A stretch of DNA of 64,000 bases, from contig NZ_KI632511.1 of the NCBI RefSeq assembly GCF_000504285.1, forward strand, positions 5,438,154-5,502,153, in the 5' to 3' direction. Each line of letters begins with the position of its first letter. Position 1 is the first letter of the stretch. This DNA is from Actinospica robiniae DSM 44927. Lineage in GTDB: Bacteria; Actinomycetota; Actinomycetes; Streptomycetales; Catenulisporaceae. A program made the translations under genes and the position numbers. The notes under the pieces were generated by a model. That model was not told where the DNA came from. It did no database searches and saw only the letters and a program-made list of their open reading frames with translations. Below, in pieces: positions 21,658-63,431 of the stretch.

Positions 21658-22170
21658 ATGGCCAAGGCACTGATCGTGGTGGACGTCCAGAAGGACTTCT
21701 GCGAGGGCGGGTCCCTTCCGGTGACCGGCGGCAACGCCGTCGCCGAGAAGGTGCGCGAGTACGTGCGGGCGGGCTCGGGCGGGGCGGACCTCGTCGTGGC
21801 CACCCGGGACTACCACGTGGATCCCGGCGCGCACTTCGGCGAATGGCCGGTGCACTGCAGGGTCGGCACGGAGGGCGCCGAGTTCCACCCGGCCGTGGCC
21901 GGGTTGCCGTTCGACGCGGAGTTCCGCAAGGGCGAGCGGGCCGCGGCCTACTCGGGCTTCGAAGGCGTGGACGCGGCCGGGAGCGGCCTCGGGCTGGCCG
22001 AGTGGCTGCGCGGACGCGGGGTGACCGAGGTGGACGTGTGCGGGCTGGCCACCGACTTCTGCGTCGCGGCGACGGCGAAGGACGCGCGCACGGCCGGGTT
22101 CGGCACACGGGTGCTGCTGGAGCTGAGCGCGTCGGTGGACCCTGACTTCGTCTACGTCGCGCAGGAGTAG
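21658..22170 (+). CDS. pncA: Nicotinamidase / isochorismatase-fold amidohydrolase
   Basis: A 170-residue cysteine hydrolase that deamidates nicotinamide to nicotinate, feeding PncB. The catalytic Asp is in [14 protein letters not shown] (Asp9), the Lys in [13 protein letters not shown] (about residue 91), and the Cys in [15 protein letters not shown] (about residue 132). Metal-ligand residues [10 protein letters not shown] are present. AAGGTGG inside the pncB end serves as ribosome site. The C-terminus is slightly shorter than typical PncA (about 185-190). Confidence 0.92.
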
Positions 22171-22198
22171 CGCGCTGCCAGGGGGCCGGCCGGGACTG

Positions 22199-23389
22199 TC
22201 AGGCCTTTACCGTCGCGGTGGAGGTGACCCGCTCGTGCAGGCCCTGCCGGTAGGGCCGGCCCCACAGCACGCCGCCGAGCGCGACGAGGTCGATCACAGG
22301 CAGCACGGCCAGGATCCAGAAGATCAGGGCCCTGCGTATGCCGGTGCCGCCGCCGCGGATCGGATGCGCGTCGGTCAGTCGCACCACCCGGATCCCGGCC
22401 AGCCGCTTGCCCGCGGTCTGCCCGCCCCGGCCCAGCCGGTAGCCCTCGTACATGACGGCGACCAGCACCAGGGCCACGGCGGCGCCGGCCCACAGCGCGA
22501 TGCCGACGGCGTCCATGCCGAGGGTGGTGTAGGTCGTGGTGGCCTGCGCGTCGAGGTTGAGCACGTACTGGTGGTCGTGGCGGTGCGCGACCAGCAGCAG
22601 CGAGACGGTGATCGGCGCGGAGAAGACGGTGGCGATGCCGAGGTCGATGATGCGGGCGAGGAACCGGGAGCCGGGCGTGGCCAGCTCCAGCACGGTGACC
22701 TCGCCCGCGTCCTCCGCGTCCTCGGAGGACGCGGAGGGCGAGCCGGGCAATCCGGCGAAGGGGTTGGCCGCGCTGCTGTAGACCGGGAAGGTGCCGGTCT
22801 GCCGGGCCGCGAACGCGGACGGGACTACCATGCCGGCCACCGTGGCGGGCCGCTGCGACTCGACCTCCTCGGCGGGCGCCTGATAAGGGGCCTGCGGAGC
22901 GGACGGGTACTGCTGCGGGATCTGCGGCCGCGGCGCCGGCGCGGGGGCCGGCTGCTGCTGGAACTGCTGCGGGATCTGGGCGCCCGCCTGCTGTCCGTAC
23001 CCGTACGGCTGCTGCGGGGCCGGCTGCTGGGGCGCGTACTGCTGCTGGAACTGCTCCGGGACGGCCTGGGCGATCTGCTGCTGAGCGACCGGCTGCTGGA
23101 CGACAGGCTGCTGTTGAACCTGCTGCCCGCCGACTGATGCAGACCCCTGTGACGCATCGAGCGCCGGCTCCGGTCGCCAGGCACCGCCCGCCGAGGATGC
23201 GCCGCTGCCGGCGGAGGACGTGCCGCCGGCGCCGGAGGAGCCGCCCGAGCTGCTCGCCCGGGCGTCCCCGCCCGGCTCGTCGGGCGCGGGCCGGCTGGTG
23301 CCGGCCACCCAGGCGTTACCGTCCCAATAACGGATATACCCCGGAATCGACGGATCCGAGTAGTAACCAGCAGACGGATTCTCGCTCAT
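22199..23389 (-). CDS. DUF2510-RDD family membrane protein with Gln/Pro-rich linker
   Basis: A 396-residue protein. An N-terminal DUF2510 motif ([21 protein letters not shown]) is followed by about 150 residues of low-complexity Gly/Ser then Gln/Pro/Ala sequence, and a C-terminal RDD domain with three predicted spans ([13 protein letters not shown] and [16 protein letters not shown]). Function is unknown. The ATG overlaps the TGA of a 26-codon upstream ORF, whose 3' part supplies the GAGGGGG ribosome site. Confidence 0.85.
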
Positions 23390-23466
23390 GACGCCCCCTC
23401 GCTAGCGCTCGGAAGGCGCCTTCGCGGACGCACTGCACCCGTTGACGCGCTCGCAAGCTCGCACAT
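23386..23466 (-). CDS. 26-codon upstream ORF (copy A) coupled to the RDD gene
   Basis: The ORF starts MCELAS, ends [11 protein letters not shown] and stops in TGA that overlaps the RDD start as ATGA. GGGGGAGGG precedes its ATG. The same 26-codon ORF, without indels, precedes the helicase gene at 30079-30159. The copies share 65 of 81 bases and the residues ELAS, G10, V12, R15, RLPSASE and the final Ser. Function unknown; a translational coupling element is the simplest reading. Confidence 0.6.
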   Translation of the reverse strand: MCELASASTGAVRPRRRLPSASEGAS

Positions 23467-23526
23467 GACGCCCTCCCCCGACAGCGGCCGATCCTTCGAA
23501 GAACACTGCTGGGAGGTTAGCCGAAA

Positions 23527-24780
<1,254 letters not shown>

Positions 24781-24848
24781 TCAGCCATTTGGGGCATCCG
24801 GCTGACAAGTCGCACAGATTGCCGAAGATCGCCGAGGAGGTCGCCCGT

Positions 24849-25328
24849 ATGGCCGTGGACGAGTTGGACGCCCGGCTGATCCGGCTGTTCACCGACGAGC
24901 CGCGGATCGGGGTGATGGAGGCCTCCCGCCGCCTCGGCGTGGCCCGCGGCACCGTGCAGGCCCGGCTGGACCGGCTGCAGGCGGACGGGGTGGTGCGCGG
25001 CTTCGGCCCGGAGCTGGATCCGGCGGCGCTGGGCTACCCGGTCACCGCGTTCGCCACCCTGGAGATCCGCCAGGGCCGCGGCCGGGACGTGCGGGCGCAC
25101 CTGGCCAGCGTGCCGGAGCTGCTGGAGATGCACACCGTCACCGGCTCCGGCGACATGCTCTGCCGGATCGTGGCGAGGTCGAACGCGGACCTGCAGCATG
25201 TGATCGACCGCCTCGTGGACTTCGAGGGCATCGTGCGCACCTCCACCATGATCGCCCTGGAGAACCCGATCCCGCTGCGGGTGGTGCAATTGGCCGAGGC
25301 TGCTGCGCGGGCCAGGGCGGAAGGGTAA
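24849..25328 (+). CDS. Lrp/AsnC family regulator
   Basis: A 159-residue feast/famine regulator with an N-terminal winged helix-turn-helix (DELDARLIRLFTDEP ... ASRRLGVARGTVQARLDRL) and a C-terminal RAM ligand-binding domain (YPVTAFATLEI; HTVTGSGDMLCRIVA). GAGGAGG precedes the ATG. It is divergent from hpd, so it probably regulates tyrosine catabolism from the 179-bp shared intergenic region. An aromatic amino acid or derivative is the likely ligand (inference). Confidence 0.9.
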   Translation: MAVDELDARLIRLFTDEPRIGVMEASRRLGVARGTVQARLDRLQADGVVRGFGPELDPAALGYPVTAFATLEIRQGRGRDVRAHLASVPELLEMHTVTGSGDMLCRIVARSNADLQHVIDRLVDFEGIVRTSTMIALENPIPLRVVQLAEAAARARAEG

Positions 25329-25338
25329 CCTCGGCGCG

Positions 25339-26010
25339 GTGGAAGAGCCTGCGCAGCTCCCGACGCCGTCGGGCGCGATATCCCCGCCGCGCCCGGACGC
25401 ACCCCGTTCGCCGGGCACCCCGCCGCGCCCGAGCCGGCGCTGGTCCAGGGCCGTGGTGGCGCTCGCCGCGGTGCTGACCGCGGGAGCCGCGGCGGTGCAC
25501 CTGACCGCGACGTTCTTCTTCAACGCGCCGGACAACGTGGTCTCCCAGAAGTACCGCGCCCAGCTCACCTGGTGGACGAGCCCGCTGCTGAACCAGAACT
25601 GGCAGCTGTTCGCGCCGAACCCGATCTCGGAGAACCTGGAGATCGACGCGCGGGCGAGCGTCGGACCGTCGGCCTCGGTCACGTCCTGGATCGACCTGTC
25701 CACGCTCGACCAGGCCGTCTCGACCGACAACCTCGCGCCGAGCCACCTGACCATGAACGGCCTGCGCAACGCATGGCTGGAATACACGAGCACGCATGAC
25801 GCGAACGGCCGGGCGACCGCGCCGCTGGCCGACACCGCGCAGCAGTACCTGCAGAGCCTGGTCCTGGGCTACCTGCGCCCACACGTGACCGGAACGATCG
25901 GATCGGTCCAGGTGCGCTTCGTCGTCACGCTGGCCCCGGGCGACGGACGGACCGCGCAGCAGATGGCCCCGCAGACGCAGACGCTGCCGTGGTGGGTGAC
26001 GGCCTCGTGA
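25339..26010 (+). CDS. DUF5819 family membrane-anchored protein
   Basis: A 223-residue protein. A Pro-rich 35-residue head precedes one N-terminal membrane span (about residues 38-60), followed by an extracytoplasmic domain with the family motif SPLLNQNWQLFAPNP. This is DUF5819, which in actinomycetes is usually linked to HTTM-domain proteins, as here. The GTG start lies 10 bp after the Lrp stop. Its stop overlaps the HTTM start as GTGA. Molecular function unknown. Confidence 0.85.
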   Translation: MEEPAQLPTPSGAISPPRPDAPRSPGTPPRPSRRWSRAVVALAAVLTAGAAAVHLTATFFFNAPDNVVSQKYRAQLTWWTSPLLNQNWQLFAPNPISENLEIDARASVGPSASVTSWIDLSTLDQAVSTDNLAPSHLTMNGLRNAWLEYTSTHDANGRATAPLADTAQQYLQSLVLGYLRPHVTGTIGSVQVRFVVTLAPGDGRTAQQMAPQTQTLPWWVTAS

Positions 26011-27485
26011 GGCCCGGACTCGCCAGGCTCGGGTCCTGGGCGGCGCGGCGCTACGAGCTGATCACCGAGACCGCTCTGGCCCTGCGGGGAGCCGCGGCGC
26101 TGCGCATCGGCTACGGGACGCTGTGGACGCTGTTCCTGCTGCGCGAGTGGGGCGAGCGGGACGCGGCGTGGGGCCCGAACGCTTACTGGTCGCCCACGAT
26201 GGAGCGCTCGTTCGAGGCGCAGAAGCTGATGCCGAGCATCCTGCGCGACTGGCTCACCGCGGTGGCCGGCCTCGGCGGCACCGGCTTCCAGTTGTTCTAC
26301 CTGCTGGCCATCCTCGCCGGCGTGCTGTTCGCACTCGGCTGGCGCACTCGCATCAGCTCCCTGTTGTTCTGCTTCGTGGTGGTGGCGCTGGAGAATCGCA
26401 GCCCGTTCATCACCGACGGCGGCGACAACGTGCTGGTGCTGATGTCGCTGTACCTGTGCTTCGCCCGGTGCGGCCGGCACTGGTCGCTGGACGCGCGGCG
26501 GACGGCGTCGGCGCTGCGGGTCGAGCCGGAGCCGGAACCGGCGGCGCGGCCGGCCTGGCGGGACGAGCTCGCCGCGATACGCGAGCAGATCGCCAACGTG
26601 CTGCACAACGGCGCGGTACTGGTGATCGCCGCGCAGGTGTGCGTCATCTACGCGACCGCGGGCCTGTACAAGGTGCAGGGTTCGATGTGGCAGGACGGCA
26701 CCGCGCTCGGGTTCATCCTGCGCCTGCACTGGTTCGAGCCCTGGCCCGCCCTGAGCTCGTGGCTGCTCGGCCACGCGGTGCTGCTCGCGCTGGCCGGCTA
26801 CCTGACCGTGTTCGTCCAGGTGGCGTTCCCGTTCACGGTCTTCACGGCCAAGCTGAAGTACCCGTCGCTGGTCGTGCTGGCCGGGATGCACCTGGCGATA
26901 GCCGTCCTGCTCGGCCTGCCGTTCTTCTCCCTGATCATGCTGGTGGGAGACGCGGTCTTCCTGTCCGACCGAGTATGGCGGGCCGTCGAAAGGGCGGTGG
27001 CGGGACCGGCGTACGCTGAGAGCATGAACGGGTCAGTACTGGTTGCTGAGTCTGTGATCGCCACCGCTCCCACTCCGACGCTCGTCTTCGACGGCGACTG
27101 CGCGTTCTGCAGCTCCAGCGTGCGCTGGGCGCAGCGTTGGTGCCGGCCGGCGGTGCGCTTCGTGCCCTGGCAGGAGATCGACCTCGACGCCAATGGGCTG
27201 ACATACGAGCAGGTCACCTCGGCGGTGCGCTGGCTCGCCCCGGGTGCGCCCCGATCGGGCCGAGCCCCCCACGGCGCGGCTGCCGTCGGCCGGCTGCTGC
27301 TGCGCAGCCGTTGGCCCTGGCGGCCGTTCGGCGCGCTGCTGCTGACGCCGCCGTTCTCCTGGATCGGCGCAGGCCTCTACCATCTGATCGCGGTCAACCG
27401 GCACCGGCTGCCCGGCGGAACCCCCGCCTGCGCCGTCCCGAGAAAGCCGGCGGCGAGCGAACCGCACGCGGACGAGCTGGGCTGA
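26007..27485 (+). CDS. HTTM-domain membrane protein fused to a DCC1-type thiol-disulfide domain
   Basis: A 492-residue protein. Residues 1 to about 330 form an HTTM (horizontally transferred transmembrane, gamma-carboxylase-like) domain with multiple spans, including LRIGYGTLWTLFLLREW and IYATAGLYKVQGSMWQDGT. The last 150 residues are a DUF393/DCC domain with the redox motif LVFDGDCAFCSSSVRW. In many actinomycetes these are separate adjacent genes; here the frame is continuous across an internal Met codon at 27024. The start is GTG at 26007, overlapping the DUF5819 stop. Substrate unknown. Confidence 0.85.
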   Translation: MRPGLARLGSWAARRYELITETALALRGAAALRIGYGTLWTLFLLREWGERDAAWGPNAYWSPTMERSFEAQKLMPSILRDWLTAVAGLGGTGFQLFYLLAILAGVLFALGWRTRISSLLFCFVVVALENRSPFITDGGDNVLVLMSLYLCFARCGRHWSLDARRTASALRVEPEPEPAARPAWRDELAAIREQIANVLHNGAVLVIAAQVCVIYATAGLYKVQGSMWQDGTALGFILRLHWFEPWPALSSWLLGHAVLLALAGYLTVFVQVAFPFTVFTAKLKYPSLVVLAGMHLAIAVLLGLPFFSLIMLVGDAVFLSDRVWRAVERAVAGPAYAESMNGSVLVAESVIATAPTPTLVFDGDCAFCSSSVRWAQRWCRPAVRFVPWQEIDLDANGLTYEQVTSAVRWLAPGAPRSGRAPHGAAAVGRLLLRSRWPWRPFGALLLTPPFSWIGAGLYHLIAVNRHRLPGGTPACAVPRKPAASEPHADELG

Positions 27486-27497
27486 GCCGACCGCCGG

Positions 27498-28175
27498 TCA
27501 GCGCAGCGCGCCGGCCACCTCGGCGGCCGCACGCACGACGCGCGGCCCGGCCCGGTGCGGATCGAGCTGGCCGAAGGAGACGACGCCGACCGAGGCCTCG
27601 ACTCCCGGCACGTCGACCACCGGCGCGGCCAGCCCGTACGCGCCCGGCTGCAGCTCGCCGTCGGTGAGCAGGTAGCCGGTGTTCTTGTCCTGGCGGTAGT
27701 TCAGGATGACCCGCCCGGCCGCGCCGCGGTCCAGCGGGTGGCGGGAGCCGACCCGGTAGGCGACGTGGTAGTCGGTCCAGGTGGGCTCGACCACGGCCAC
27801 GGCCAGCGCCTCGGTACCGTCCACCACGGTCAGGTGCGCCGTGGCGCCGACCTCCTCGGCCAGCCGGCGCAGCGGAATCGCCGCGGCCTCGCGCAGCAGC
27901 GGCTGCACCCGCCGGGCCAGCGCCAGCACACCGATGCTCAGGCGCGCCCGGCCGGAGGCGTCCCGGCGGGCCAGATTGTGCAGCTCCAGCGTGGCCAGCA
28001 GCCGGTAGACGATCGTGCGGTTGACGTGCAGCCGCTCGGCCAGTTCGGTCACGGTAAGTCCGGCCGGCACCTCGGCCAGCTCTTCGAGCGCGCGCAGCCC
28101 CCGGTCGAGGGTCTGCGAGGTCTCCGGATGGTGCTCGACCGGAGCGCTCGAGATGTGCGGGGTGCTTGAAGTCAC
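27498..28175 (-). CDS. IclR-type transcriptional regulator
   Basis: A 225-residue regulator with an N-terminal winged helix (QTLDRGLRALEELAEVPAG and LTVTELAERLHVNRTIVYRLLATL) and a C-terminal GAF-like effector domain (RVGSRHPLDRGAAGRVIL). A -10 box TACACT ends 6 nt before the GTG at 28175, pointing to a leaderless transcript and fixing the start. The gene is convergent with the HTTM gene. Its target is not evident from the neighbours. Confidence 0.9.
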   Translation of the reverse strand: MTSSTPHISSAPVEHHPETSQTLDRGLRALEELAEVPAGLTVTELAERLHVNRTIVYRLLATLELHNLARRDASGRARLSIGVLALARRVQPLLREAAAIPLRRLAEEVGATAHLTVVDGTEALAVAVVEPTWTDYHVAYRVGSRHPLDRGAAGRVILNYRQDKNTGYLLTDGELQPGAYGLAAPVVDVPGVEASVGVVSFGQLDPHRAGPRVVRAAAEVAGALR

Positions 28176-28288
28176 CCCAGCAGTGTAAGCACGTCGGGAA
28201 GCTCGCGGACCGCCCGGAGCGAGCCCGGATCGGGCCCGACGCGCTGGAACCGCCGGACTCGACGCGCCGGACCACCGGGCTCGAGCCC

Positions 28289-30082
28289 TTAGGACTGCCG
28301 GGCCCGCTCCGTCGCCCAGGCCCGCACCCGGTCGATCCGGGAGCGCAGCTCGGCCGCGCTGGCCTGGGCCGCCGGCGGACCGCCGCAGCTGCGGCGCAGC
28401 TCGTTGTGGATCACGCCGTGCGGCAGGCCGGACTGGTGGTGCCAGGCCCCGACCAGCGTGTGCAGCTCCTTGCGCAGGCTCAGCAGCTGCTGGTGCGAGA
28501 CCACCGGCCGCTGCTCGGCGGGCATCGCCGCCGGGGCGTCCTCGTCGGCCCGCGTCCGCCCCTTCTGCCGGGCGATCTGCCGGGTCTGGCGGCGCTGCAG
28601 CAGCGTCCGCACGTGCTCGGGCTCGAGCAGTCCGGGGATGCCGAGGTAGTCGGCCTCCTCGGCGCTGCCGGCCTGCGCGGCCAGGCCGTAGTCGTCGCCG
28701 TCGAACATCACCCGGTCGAAGGTGGCCTCCGACTCGAGCGCCTTGAAGGCGAACTCGCCGAGGTCGGCCTCGTTCTTCTCCGCGTTGGCGTCGGCGAGCA
28801 GGTCCTCCTCCTCGGCCCACAGGTCGTCCTCGCCGCGCTTCTTCCGGTCGAGCACGTGGTCGCGCTCCAGCTCGAGCTCGTGCGCGAACTGGACCAGCAG
28901 CGGCACCGAGGGCAGGAAGACCGAGGCGGTCTCGCCGCGCCGCCGGGCCCGCACGAACCGGCCCACCGCCTGGGCGAAGAAGAGCGGCGTGGAGATCGAG
29001 GTGGCGTACACGCCCACGGCCAGGCGCGGCACGTCCACGCCCTCGGACACCATGCGCACCGCGACCATCCAGCGCTTGTCGCCGTCGCTGTACTTCTCGA
29101 TGTGCGAGGAGGCCTTCGGGTCGTCCGAGAGCACGACGGTGGGCGACTCGTCGGTGATCTCGCGCAGCATCCGGGCGTACGCGCGCGCGGCGTTGTGGTC
29201 GGTGGCGATGACCAGGCCGCCGGCGTCCGGAACCGAGCGGCGCACCTCCGTCAGCCGCTTGTCCGCCGCCCGCAGCACCGAGGGCATCCAGTTGCCGGCC
29301 GGGTCGAGCGCGGTGCGCCAGGCCTGGCTGACCGCGTCCTGGGTCATCGGCTCGCCGAGCGAGGCGGCGATCTCGTCGCCGGCCTTGGTCCGCCAGCGCA
29401 TCTGGCCCGCGTAGGACATGAAGATGACCGGCCGCACGACGCCGTCCCCCAGCGCCGCGCCGTACCCGTAGGTGAAGTCGGCGACGGAGCGGCGCGCGCC
29501 CTCGGCGTCCGGGGCGTAGGTGACGAAGGGAATCGGGGCCACGTCCGAGCGGAACGGGGTGCCGGTCAGCGCGAGCCGCCGGGCGGCCGGCTCAAAGGCC
29601 TCGGAGATCGCGTCGCCCCAGGCCAGCGCGTCGCCGGCGTGGTGGATCTCGTCCAGGATGACCAGCGTGCGGCGGTTCTCCACCCGGGCCCGGTGCAGCA
29701 TCGGGTGCGCCGCCACGCCCGCGTAGGTGACGGCGATGCCGGTGTAGTCGCGGGAGGTGCCGCCGACCGCGCCGGAGTAGGTCGGGTCGATCGCTATCCC
29801 GACCTTGCGCGCGGCCTCGGACCACTGGTGCTTGAGGTGCTCGGTCGGCGCGACGACGGTGATCTGCTGGACGAGGTGACGGTCCAACAGCTCGGTCGCG
29901 ATCCGCAGCGCGAACGTGGTCTTGCCGGCGCCCGGCGTGGCCACCGCGAGGAAGTCCCGCGGCTCGCGCATGAGGTACTCGTCGAGCGCGGCCTGCTGCC
30001 AGGCCCGCAGCTTGCCGGCGGTGCCCCAGGGTGCGCGATCCGGGTAGGCCGGAGACAGATGGGAGGCGGCGTTCGTACTCAC
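28289..30082 (-). CDS. DEAD/DEAH-box helicase
   Basis: A 597-residue superfamily 2 helicase. Walker A is ATPGAGKTT (about residue 48), the DExH box is DEIHH, motif III LALTGTPFRSD, and motif VI QAVGRFVRARRRGE. The C-terminal third is acidic and helical without a recognised domain. This type is conserved in actinomycetes and may act on DNA or RNA; the substrate is unknown. The GTG at 30082 overlaps the TGA of a 26-codon upstream ORF (GTGA) that supplies GAGGTGGAG as ribosome site. Confidence 0.9.
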   Translation of the reverse strand: MSTNAASHLSPAYPDRAPWGTAGKLRAWQQAALDEYLMREPRDFLAVATPGAGKTTFALRIATELLDRHLVQQITVVAPTEHLKHQWSEAARKVGIAIDPTYSGAVGGTSRDYTGIAVTYAGVAAHPMLHRARVENRRTLVILDEIHHAGDALAWGDAISEAFEPAARRLALTGTPFRSDVAPIPFVTYAPDAEGARRSVADFTYGYGAALGDGVVRPVIFMSYAGQMRWRTKAGDEIAASLGEPMTQDAVSQAWRTALDPAGNWMPSVLRAADKRLTEVRRSVPDAGGLVIATDHNAARAYARMLREITDESPTVVLSDDPKASSHIEKYSDGDKRWMVAVRMVSEGVDVPRLAVGVYATSISTPLFFAQAVGRFVRARRRGETASVFLPSVPLLVQFAHELELERDHVLDRKKRGEDDLWAEEEDLLADANAEKNEADLGEFAFKALESEATFDRVMFDGDDYGLAAQAGSAEEADYLGIPGLLEPEHVRTLLQRRQTRQIARQKGRTRADEDAPAAMPAEQRPVVSHQQLLSLRKELHTLVGAWHHQSGLPHGVIHNELRRSCGGPPAAQASAAELRSRIDRVRAWATERARQS

Positions 30083-30159
30083 GACTCCACCTCGCTGGCG
30101 CTCGGTAGGCGCGTTCGCGCAGGCACTGTGCCTGATGGCTCGCTCGCAAGCTCGCTCAC
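30079..30159 (-). CDS. 26-codon upstream ORF (copy B) coupled to the helicase gene
   Basis: Starts GTG AGC GAG (SELAS) with GAGGGGGA upstream, ends TRLPSASEVES and stops overlapping the helicase start. It has the same length and layout as copy A at 23386-23466. It contains a CTA leucine codon, rare in this DNA. Confidence 0.6.
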   Translation of the reverse strand: MSELASEPSGTVPARTRLPSASEVES

Positions 30160-30244
30160 GTGATCGTCCCCCTCGTCGGTTCAAGCTCGGCGGTCTTCTA
30201 CCGTACCGGGCCCCGGCGACAGGATCGGCGGAATCGGACACACC

Positions 30245-30277
30245 ACGGCCGGTGGCGTGGATCACGTCACCGGCCGT
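30245..30277 (-). terminator. Terminator after the secreted repeat protein gene
   Basis: ACGGCCGGTG and CACCGGCCGT pair perfectly over 10 bp around a 13-nt loop, 24 bp after the stop codon at 30302. Confidence 0.6.
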
Positions 30278-30301
30278 CGCGCTCGGGCTACTGAAACTCC
30301 G

Positions 30302-31720
30302 TCAGTTCACCATGAAGGAGTAGTCGTACGAGGTGAGGTTCACTCCGTCCTTTGTGGTGGCGTACACGGTCAGGTCGTAGAACGGCAAGCCGCTGTCGCC
30401 CGTCGGGGCCCAGGTGATCTGGGCATCCCCGTTCGCGTCCGCGGGCACTGTGGTCTCGGTGTTGCCGTAGTCGAAGGAGTAGGTGTAGCTCACGACCCCG
30501 GCCACCTTGGGCGCGAACGTGAACGTGCCGGGCACGCCCACGCCGCCGCCGAAGCCGTTCTCCGGGTAGACGTCGGAGCTGACCGTGGGGGTGGTGTCGT
30601 AGTAGTAGTTCTGCTCGGCGGCGTCGCTCACCCAGCCGTTGGCGCTGGTGCTGGTGACCGTCACGTCGTCGTTGGCGGGCTGATCGAGCTTGAGCGAGAC
30701 CGTGGCCGAGCCGTCGGGGTCCGCCTTGTACGTGTGCGCGGCTCCGGCACCGATGGTCACCGTGTAGCTCACGATCGGGCTCGCCGCCTCGGCCGTGGCG
30801 TTCGGGGTGAAGGTGAACGAGGCCTTCTTGTCGAAGGCCGGCGTGGTGGCGGGCGGGGTGATCGTGGGCTCGGTCGACGAGACGAAGACCTGATAGGAGG
30901 TCACGCTCGACGCGTTGAACGCCCGGTCGAAGCTCTCCACGTACAGCGTCAGCGGGCCGTAGGCGCCGGCCGGCGGGAGCAGGTCGAGGCTGGCGGAGCC
31001 GCCGACGGTGGGCGCCTGCACGAACGAGTCGGTGTCGGCCCACGGGTTGGTCTTCTGCAGGATGCCGTAGGCGCCGGTGCCGCCGAGACGGGGCACCGGG
31101 ATGGGCTCCTCCCAGGAGAAGCCGTAGCCCGCGACGTCCCCGACCTCGTCGGCCCCGAAGGTGACCTGCATGGGCGCGCCGCCCTGGTCCCATCCGCCGT
31201 TGCTCGGGTAGTTCGCCGAGGTGATGGTCGGGGCCGCGGACGGCGGCGTGGTGTCGAGGCTGAAGTAGCAGGTGTGCGTCCACGGCGAGGTGTCGCTGCC
31301 CGCGACGGTGCGCGCCTGCCAGGCGTAGGTCTGGCCCTCCACCAGCGAGGACATCGGGACGTTCACCGGCGCTTCGAAGCCGGCCAGGGCCTCCGCGGCC
31401 GCGTAGGTGGTGATCTGGGTCGGATCGCTGACGGGCCAGAGCTGGTACTGCGCGGTGGGCGTCGGGTAGTCGGTCGTGTCCGTGTCCCGCGGTACGCCCT
31501 CGAGGTCGATGCCGCTGTCCGCGCCGGACACGCCGAAGGCCACGTAGGCGGGTGCGGACGGGTCGGTGGAGCAGGTGAACAGGCCGTTGGCCAGGTGATC
31601 GGGCCGTTCGGCGCCGGTGGCCGCCGCGCTGGCCGGCGCGATCGCGCCGGCCAGCGCGGTGCCGAGGACGGCGATGGAGACGAGGACGGCCCGATAGCGG
31701 GTCAGGTCGGCTACTGGCAA
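30302..31720 (-). CDS. Secreted protein with Ig/fibronectin-like repeats
   Basis: A 472-residue exported protein. The N-terminus RYRAVLVSIAVLGTALAGAIAPASAAA is a Sec-type signal peptide (hydrophobic core VLVSIAVLGTALAG, cleavage near ASA-AA). The rest is Thr/Ser/Tyr/Pro-rich with several beta-sandwich-like repeats. Each holds a phrase like TYSFDYGNTE, SYTVTIGAGAAHTYK or TPPSAAPTITS, typical of actinomycete cell-surface Ig-like or fibronectin III-like modules. I chose TTG at 31720 because GGGGAGGA lies 9 nt upstream. No catalytic domain is visible, and function is unknown. Confidence 0.78.
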   Translation of the reverse strand: MPVADLTRYRAVLVSIAVLGTALAGAIAPASAAATGAERPDHLANGLFTCSTDPSAPAYVAFGVSGADSGIDLEGVPRDTDTTDYPTPTAQYQLWPVSDPTQITTYAAAEALAGFEAPVNVPMSSLVEGQTYAWQARTVAGSDTSPWTHTCYFSLDTTPPSAAPTITSANYPSNGGWDQGGAPMQVTFGADEVGDVAGYGFSWEEPIPVPRLGGTGAYGILQKTNPWADTDSFVQAPTVGGSASLDLLPPAGAYGPLTLYVESFDRAFNASSVTSYQVFVSSTEPTITPPATTPAFDKKASFTFTPNATAEAASPIVSYTVTIGAGAAHTYKADPDGSATVSLKLDQPANDDVTVTSTSANGWVSDAAEQNYYYDTTPTVSSDVYPENGFGGGVGVPGTFTFAPKVAGVVSYTYSFDYGNTETTVPADANGDAQITWAPTGDSGLPFYDLTVYATTKDGVNLTSYDYSFMVN

Positions 31721-31821
31721 GGCGGTGGATCCTCCCCGGTGCGTTGCCCGGTTACAGCCCACTGATGTGCGCTGCCTTACGGGCGCCGGGGAAATGTTAG
31801 CCCTGATTCACCATGCGGGCA

Positions 31822-48047: not shown

Positions 48048-48608
48048 CTAGGCAGCCAAGCAGAGTGAGTCCCTGCCTTGGAGCGCCATCGCAGCGGCCG
48101 TACTTGTCAAAGCGGCCGTACCTGTCAAAGCGACAGTGCTTGCCACAGCGACCGTACTTGCCACAGCGACAGTGCTTGTCTCAGCCCGCGAGTACTGCGG
48201 GACGCCGACCACAAGCGCTGCGGCAGCTGCCGCGGCACGCTCGTACTCGACCAGCCGCACCTGCACTCTCACCAGCAACTCCGTCATGCTGATGCCGAGA
48301 GCCCGCGTCGCCGCCGCGAGCATCTCGGACGACGCCTCTTTACGTCCGCGCTCGATTTCCGAGAGGTACGGCATCGAGATCCGAGCCACGTCCGCGACAT
48401 CCTGAAGGGTGCGATGCCTGGTCTGACGGACCTCGCGCAGCACTTCGCCGACGACGTCGCGCCACAGCGGCTCACGAGAAGCGCCGCGGCTGCGGCGCTC
48501 GCCCTCGGGGGTGACGGCAAGGTCGGCAGGTGGCGCGGCGGCTGCAACTACCGCAAGGGGGACGGCGCTGGGGCATGCTTCGGGGGGCCCGCTGTTGGGA
48601 TTGGGCAT
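48048..48608 (-). CDS. XRE-family regulator, PopR/ClgR-like, with C-terminal LAA
   Basis: A 186-residue regulator. After a Pro/Ala-rich head comes the helix-turn-helix core EVRQTRHRTLQDVADVARIS and YLSEIERGRKEASSEMLAAA, close to the ClgR/PopR group that controls clp genes in Streptomyces. The C-terminal 50 residues contain a repetitive Ser/Thr/Val/Ala stretch and end LCLAA. In PopR and ClgR the terminal Ala residues make the protein a Clp substrate. I chose the ATG at 48608 (AAGGAGG 6 nt upstream); a -10 TACGCT lies about 55 bp upstream. Confidence 0.82.
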   Translation of the reverse strand: MPNPNSGPPEACPSAVPLAVVAAAAPPADLAVTPEGERRSRGASREPLWRDVVGEVLREVRQTRHRTLQDVADVARISMPYLSEIERGRKEASSEMLAAATRALGISMTELLVRVQVRLVEYERAAAAAAALVVGVPQYSRAETSTVAVASTVAVASTVALTGTAALTSTAAAMALQGRDSLCLAA

Positions 48609-60480: not shown

Positions 60481-60545
60481 TACGCCGAACCCCCGCCTGG
60501 CGCGCAGAAAACAAGCGCGTACGCGGGGCTACAGATACCTCAGCG
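60481..60545. repeat. Dispersed hairpin repeat (copy 1)
   Basis: Similar to the 67-bp element at 62963-63029 over its full length. Both end GCGCGTA-C/G-GCGGGGCTACAG and then TCAGCG. It lies 29 bp after the anti-sigma-like gene and abuts the truncated toxin-like fragment. Confidence 0.65.
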
Positions 60546-60720
60546 CGGACCTGAGGATCGGTTGCCGTTCAACCCGGTGAACCAGCAGGGCAAGGTTCTC
60601 TGGGTAGACATGCAAAGCGGCAAGGTCAGCGAGAATCCGCTGTACCTCCATGCCGGCGCGGTAGCTTCCATCGTCCTCGACGCGAACGGGAAAAGCTATG
60701 AAGAACGGCTCACGACGTGA
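60541..60720 (+). pseudogene. 5'-truncated fragment, possibly the C-terminus of a papain-fold toxin
   Basis: An open frame without a credible start ends at 60720. It reads DRLPFNPVNQQGK, VLWVDMQSGKVSENPLYLH and SIVLDANGKSYEERLTT (in parts). The WVDMQSGKV motif resembles the (W/Y)xDxQxGxV region of glutamine-deamidase-type polymorphic toxins, where the Asp is catalytic. The upstream part is replaced by hairpin repeat copy 1, so this is probably a remnant. An immunity-like gene follows after 12 bp. Confidence 0.4.
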
Positions 60721-62962: not shown

Positions 62963-63029
62963 TACGACGAAGCCCCGCCGTAGCGCGCAGCGAAGCAAGC
63001 GCGTAGGCGGGGCTACAGGTAGGTCAGCG
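62963..63029. repeat. Dispersed hairpin repeat (copy 2), next to ssrA
   Basis: AGCCCCGCC and GGCGGGGCT pair around GC-rich inner arms, giving a strong hairpin immediately past the ssrA 3' end, so it probably serves as the ssrA terminator. It is related to the copy at 60481-60545. Confidence 0.68.
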
Positions 63030-63431
63030 TGGAGGTGCCGGGAATCGAACCCGGGTCCATCAGCGGCTCAGCAAGGCTTCTACGGGCGTAGTCCCGTGCG
63101 AGTTTCTCGGCTCCGGTGATCCCCGGGACGGGTCACCGACAAGCCCAGCCACGTGAGTTTCCCTCATTCGCCCGTAGCCTGCTCATGAGGTTTAGCCCCC
63201 TAGCGATGCCGCGTCCAGGTCGGGGGCGATCCTGGGGCGACAAAGGCGCTGTGCCAGCGCCTCACTGCGTTTCTAGAGAACTAGATCAGGCAGCGAGACG
63301 GAGGTCGGCCTTGGCCATCTGCTTAGAGTTGGCATTTGTTTTTTTGCCGTGTTTTTGGTTAACGAGATCATCACGGCTTCCTCGGCCCGCTTCCCCTGCG
63401 TCAACGTCCAATGTCGAAACCGTTCACCCCC
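63030..63431 (-). ncRNA. ssrA: tmRNA (ssrA)
   Basis: Transfer-messenger RNA of about 402 nt that rescues stalled ribosomes. The tRNA-like ends pair as GGGGGTG and CACCTCC with A as discriminator, and the T arm GGGTTCGATTCCC is intact. The 5' part contains GGTTTCGACATTGG, typical of tmRNA. The tag ORF (63333 down to 63286) encodes ANSKQMAKADLRLAA and ends TGA; LAA is the ClpXP degron. CCA is not encoded. smpB is not adjacent. The ends are set by pairing and may shift by a base or two. Confidence 0.95.

Follow-up and report, generated by a model that had tools for sequence, protein, structure and literature searches.

A 77-nt mini-ORF element inserted at start codons of unrelated genes in Actinospica robiniae is probably a MIRU-type mobile element

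MIRUs are used worldwide in tuberculosis typing. The non-autonomous IS200/IS605-type and REP/RAYT elements, associated with Y1 transposases, are small and show a terminal hairpin-like sequence and a fixed target motif. A review (PMC12548453, citing Supply 1997) describes MIRUs as apparently mobile and inserted at start codons, with an ORF coupled to the gene at -4 nt and probably with minimal impact on that gene; the review covers MIRUs in mycobacteria only. For the M. tuberculosis complex, long intergenic regions filled with repeats were reported in front of Mtb-fpg1, the corresponding regions being short in other mycobacteria (PMC2734929). No description of such elements outside mycobacteria was found in the open-access literature searched.

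The window analysed here is a stretch of 64,000 nt from Actinospica robiniae DSM 44927 (contig NZ_KI632511.1, positions 5,438,154 to 5,502,153). The original prediction had described in it twin 26-codon ORFs whose TGA overlaps the next start codon, with ribosome sites both upstream and within their 3' ends, and these claims were borne out by the following features:

23386..23466, minus strand: element copy 1, a 26-codon ORF (ATG...TGA) whose stop codon and the ATG start of the RDD gene overlap as ATGA
22199..23389, minus strand: downstream gene 1, RDD family protein (PF06271, DUF2510)
23471..23479, minus strand: host ribosome site GGGGGAGGG, originally that of the RDD gene and now preceding copy 1, as deduced from the empty site of the congener G001
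23394..23400, minus strand: ribosome-site-like GAGGGGG at the 3' end of copy 1, before the RDD start, read from the sequence
23445..23466, minus strand: 5' segment of copy 1 that takes in the start codon and may form a hairpin, proposed from covariation (A at base 1 facing T at base 22)
30079..30159, minus strand: element copy 2, a 26-codon ORF VSELASEPSGTVPARTRLPSASEVES (GTG...TGA) whose stop codon and the GTG start of the helicase gene overlap as GTGA
28289..30082, minus strand: downstream gene 2, ResIII/DEAD helicase (PF04851, PF00270)
30167..30174, minus strand: host ribosome site GAGGGGGA, originally that of the helicase gene and now preceding copy 2, as deduced from the empty site of G001
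30090..30093, minus strand: ribosome-site-like GAGG at the 3' end of copy 2, before the helicase start, read from the sequence
30138..30159, minus strand: 5' segment of copy 2 that takes in the start codon and may form a hairpin, proposed from covariation (G at base 1 facing C at base 22)

The two copies are identical at 65 of 81 bases in a gap-free comparison, and the ribosome site upstream of each (GGGGGAGGG for copy 1 and GAGGGGGA for copy 2) lies at normal spacing. Both end with GAGG, about 7 nt 5' of the true gene start. Position 30082, named in the original prediction, is the helicase start itself, copy 2 running from 30079 to 30159. The upstream genes are separated from the copies by 60 and about 140 nt, and the 5' ends at these two sites are not of the stop-start type. 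No Rfam family was detected at gathering score in window positions 22000-31800. Two other kinds of repeat were observed in the window: an 18-nt unit (AGCGGCCGTACTTGTCAA) in head-to-tail direct copies at 48093-48182 (36-mers 75-81% alike), and two direct repeats of 41 nt, sharing 85% identity and unrelated to the mini-ORF element, at 60509-60549 and 62993-63033.

When copy 1 was compared by BLAST with its own genome (9.92 Mb, one contig), 58 hits were obtained, among which the true copies had E values from 1e-46 to about 1e-7. Read one by one, the loci resolved into 54 units distributed over 37 sites, some of which hold arrays of two to four. The seed TGAGCGAGCTTGCGAGC, allowing up to two mismatches, was found at 58 places vs. 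8 with the reversed control, and the family is far above chance. Complete units measure 75, 78, 81 or 84 nt, all differences being multiples of three, and the tandem periods of 77, also 71 and 80, are all 2 mod 3, because the four-base stop-start overlap of the DTGA coupling requires such values.

At 34 of the 37 sites the unit was in frame, carried a ribosome-site-like GAGG and ended in a DTGA on the downstream start, as expected if the window copies were not a chance pair or a non-coding repeat, the two refuting outcomes named in the original prediction. The imperfect sites were 4669177, where the unit runs in frame into its gene, 4146072, which adjoins the start codon with the final TGA absent, and 8929746, degenerate at its start. 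At 23 of the 37 sites the 5' TGA also terminated a long frame lying upstream, and a long ORF started from the 3' DTG at nearly all sites, counts that are supportive and individually not conclusive, as long ORFs are common in every frame of high-GC genomes. The unit at 4669177 (plus strand) lacks its 3' end and is fused to a 429-codon gene resembling that of 8-amino-7-oxononanoate synthase, the N-terminal MSELASES tag of which comes from the element. At 6404569 and 6405374, two consecutive operon junctions, nuoB-nuoC-like and nuoC-nuoD-like, are each occupied by a unit.

The element belongs to a wider actinomycete group, as a related SERSER-type family is present in multiple copies in other actinomycete families. 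With the pattern TGAGCGAGCGNAGCGAGC, 101 matches were obtained in 8 other genomes, against none for the reversed control. Reading of these matches and their neighbours yielded 95 distinct copies with MSERSER or VSERSER starts and a GNA loop. Among the 78 with a short ORF, 73 had the DTGA end and 69 adjoined a downstream ORF. Base 1 and base 23 combined as A:T 34, G:C 32, A:C 15 and G:T 2 in these 8 genomes, and as A:T 67, G:C 59, A:C 18 and G:T 1 among 150 copies listed in 13 genomes with a second pattern that constrained base 23 to C or T, for which no within-genome shuffle reached the observed association, these association figures being inflated by kinship among the copies. Tandem periods were 2 mod 3 in several genomes. 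A looser pattern was present in 114 of the 297 genomes of the class, most of which hold no more than two copies, a level near that of the reversed control, and roughly sixteen at least six. In-frame fusions like that at 4669177, with MSERSER, are also present in other genomes.

Both window sites were found empty in two congeners, G001 and G002. In G001, where the coding flanks are 91-94% identical, the host ribosome site (GGGGGAGG and GAGGGGGA, respectively) directly precedes the native start and exactly 77 nt are absent. Since the sites are empty in the congeners and the host ribosome site and start are kept, minus 77 nt, the element is a mobile insertion. Thus, the proposal of a portable translational-coupling cassette spread among unrelated genes was essentially right, given the empty sites together with the in-frame DTGA at 34 of 37 sites. 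Three further own-genome sites were empty in G001; one of these, plus two others, was occupied both in the own genome and in G002. One of these shared occupied sites is a junction that looks like nuoB-nuoC from protein sequence alone, and it was occupied in the own genome, in G002 and in G081, a genome from another family. In the latter the junction holds a SERSER-type unit, making it a possible insertion hot spot.

Regarding the exact point of insertion, own sites with GTG at the 5' end and ATG at the 3' end were compared with their empty congener counterparts, which read ATG at two of the three. This is most simply explained if the whole unit, its own DTGA included, is placed immediately 5' of the native start codon. 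In other genomes, the 5' and 3' D were identical in 57 of 73 copies, so that agreement with the target, or a duplication, may still contribute to the 5' base. With respect to the machinery, the Y1 transposase was rejected as mobiliser, as PF01797 was absent from the own genome, G001 and G002. No mobilising enzyme was found, nor any larger element with the same ends in the own genome. Searches for possible phage carriage in viral contigs with one SERSER pattern, and in plasmids with one SERSER array, gave no match.

The intact frame of nearly all copies, the own ribosome site, the stop-start overlap and the well-conserved N-terminal MSELASE would all fit a functional regulatory leader, in which the peptide or its translation rate controls the downstream gene in the manner of an attenuator or a cis-acting uORF. 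However, the genes downstream of the copies are unrelated and the same genes lack the element in congeners. Moreover, pN/pS was 0.94 over 30 copies, one per site, and 1.7 in the middle third of the mini-ORF (pooled paralogue comparisons, to which no formal test was applied), and paired indels convert the middle into RPRMR, RRECG or ECARTR while both ends remain in frame. Because of this ratio and of the compensated frameshifts, it is the frame that is kept and not the residues; the idea of a peptide family acting in cis, also put forward in the original prediction, therefore found no support. The 5' end is conserved at the DNA level, and its leucine codon CTT, unusual in high-GC genomes, hardly varies. 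The peptide is probably a by-product, and a regulatory leader is quite unlikely. This nucleotide-level conservation, along with the covariation of bases 1 and 22/23, could also be explained by a non-coding repeat open by chance, with a DNA or RNA structure that matters and an incidental mini-ORF. Against this, complete own-genome units differ in length by multiples of three, tandem periods are 2 mod 3 in several genomes, frameshifts are compensated and the element ends coincide with start codons, making such a repeat highly improbable.

The covariation, which like the architectural match to MIRUs had escaped the original prediction, was counted at 36 own sites, taking at each the unit lying outermost: an A at base 1 accompanied a T at base 22/23 27 times and a G accompanied a C nine times, with zero exceptions, those that exist lying within tandem arrays. 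Pair counts on the copy alignment agreed with it. The A/G label does not mark a single subfamily, because it changed 8 times on the copy tree, as many times as shuffled labels. This covariation suggests a 5' hairpin. A strong hairpin by energy was rejected, as the DNA folding energy of the element was no better than that of shuffles; the only copy folding as drawn was a TCA-type copy with a GCA loop. A different use of the same base would be guide-target pairing, in which base 22/23 would pair with the initial nucleotide of the start codon at the target and so select ATGA or GTGA sites. This is attractive from the exceptionless pairs, from the 8 switches on the tree, from the same trend in other genomes and from one ATGAAC copy that has an A5-T18 pair and precedes a gene beginning with ATGAAC. 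Nevertheless, it is weakened by the ATG found in empty congener sites opposite GTG-type elements: the G seems to be brought by the element, the native ATG being the 3' one, and therefore bases 1 and 22/23 would form an internal pair. In addition, TTGA copies lack the expected A partner and the genome has no Y1 transposase, so that guide-target pairing appears very improbable.

In comparison with the described systems, the element resembles MIRUs in its 50-80-nt units (within a range of about 40-100 bp), both dispersed and tandem in a single genome, in its 77-nt period, in the small ORF that shares four bases (DTGA) with the next start and in its insertion at start codons in gene orientation; as in MIRUs, the stop codon of the gene in front can overlap the element's start, here at the 23 own sites mentioned above. 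It differs in its peptide (MSELASE... or MSERSER...), in its 5' segment, which includes the start codon and the covarying base pair, in its host, which is outside Mycobacterium, and in its sequence, which does not match the MIRU consensus and lacks the MIRU core GACGATGCAGAGCGTAGCGATGAG. A scan with this core returned 60 stretches, nearly all filed as Mycobacterium. Among 47 mycobacterial MIRU copies, the start-to-start distance was 2 mod 3 in 33, and bases 5-6 matched between the two ends in 26 (shuffled mean 8.6), this match of the copies to their target being a further difference from the element. One contig filed as Bacillus subtilis SK7B5 (JAHREJ010000087.1, 3.3 kb) holds two MIRU units of mycobacterial type at a spacing of 77 nt and looks like contamination.

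MIRU and SERSER-type copies have GAGCGNAGCGA in common, in the same frame, the window copies carrying GAGCTTGCGA at this place. The chance of such sharing is 0.001-0.005 per random MIRU-like sequence, which is suggestive, not proof, of common descent. The element is a MIRU-type mobile mini-ORF whose architecture matches feature by feature except in sequence, and by sequence it is not a MIRU. With IS200/IS605-type and REP/RAYT elements it shares small size, a terminal hairpin-like sequence and a fixed target motif, but these have no coupled ORF, and PF01797 is missing from the own genome and the two congeners. Coupled uORFs and leader peptides also have a stop-start overlap and their own ribosome site, whereas each leader peptide serves one gene and the element is dispersed before unrelated genes, with empty sites in congeners.

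The window copies are, then, very probably a MIRU-type mobile element that would behave as a translation-transparent insert at start codons, which is also how the MIRUs of mycobacteria are understood. According to this reading, the 77-nt unit would insert in gene orientation immediately 5' of a start codon, with DTGA and in most cases DTGAGC as the motif, leaving the host ribosome site before its own start codon. Ribosomes would enter at the host site, translate the 26-codon frame and terminate at the TGA overlapping the real start, where re-initiation on the real gene would be helped by the 3' GAGG of the element. Where the target is already a stop-start overlap within an operon, the upstream TGA would come to overlap the element start and coupling would be kept on both sides, and repeated units would give rise to tandem chains of coupled mini-ORFs. 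Because the gene would still be expressed, the element could spread into start sites, housekeeping operons included, at low cost. The in-frame fusion of unit 4669177 and the lack of a 3' TGA in unit 4146072 count against this explanation.

A broader proposal is a tentative one and rather less than an even prospect: there may exist a widespread actinomycete superfamily of translation-transparent mobile mini-ORFs with a common 5' end (DTGAGCGAGC-loop-GCGAGC) and a start codon base-paired within the element, of which MIRUs would be one divergent branch, all of them moved by an enzyme recognising the 5' hairpin. For annotation, such mini-ORFs are liable to be missed or called as N-terminal extensions, and the element has left some genes with an in-frame tag, MSELASE or MSERSER. 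As the MIRU architecture is now found in actinomycetes other than mycobacteria, where both fresh insertions and empty sites occur, further organisms are available in which mobility and coupling could be tested.
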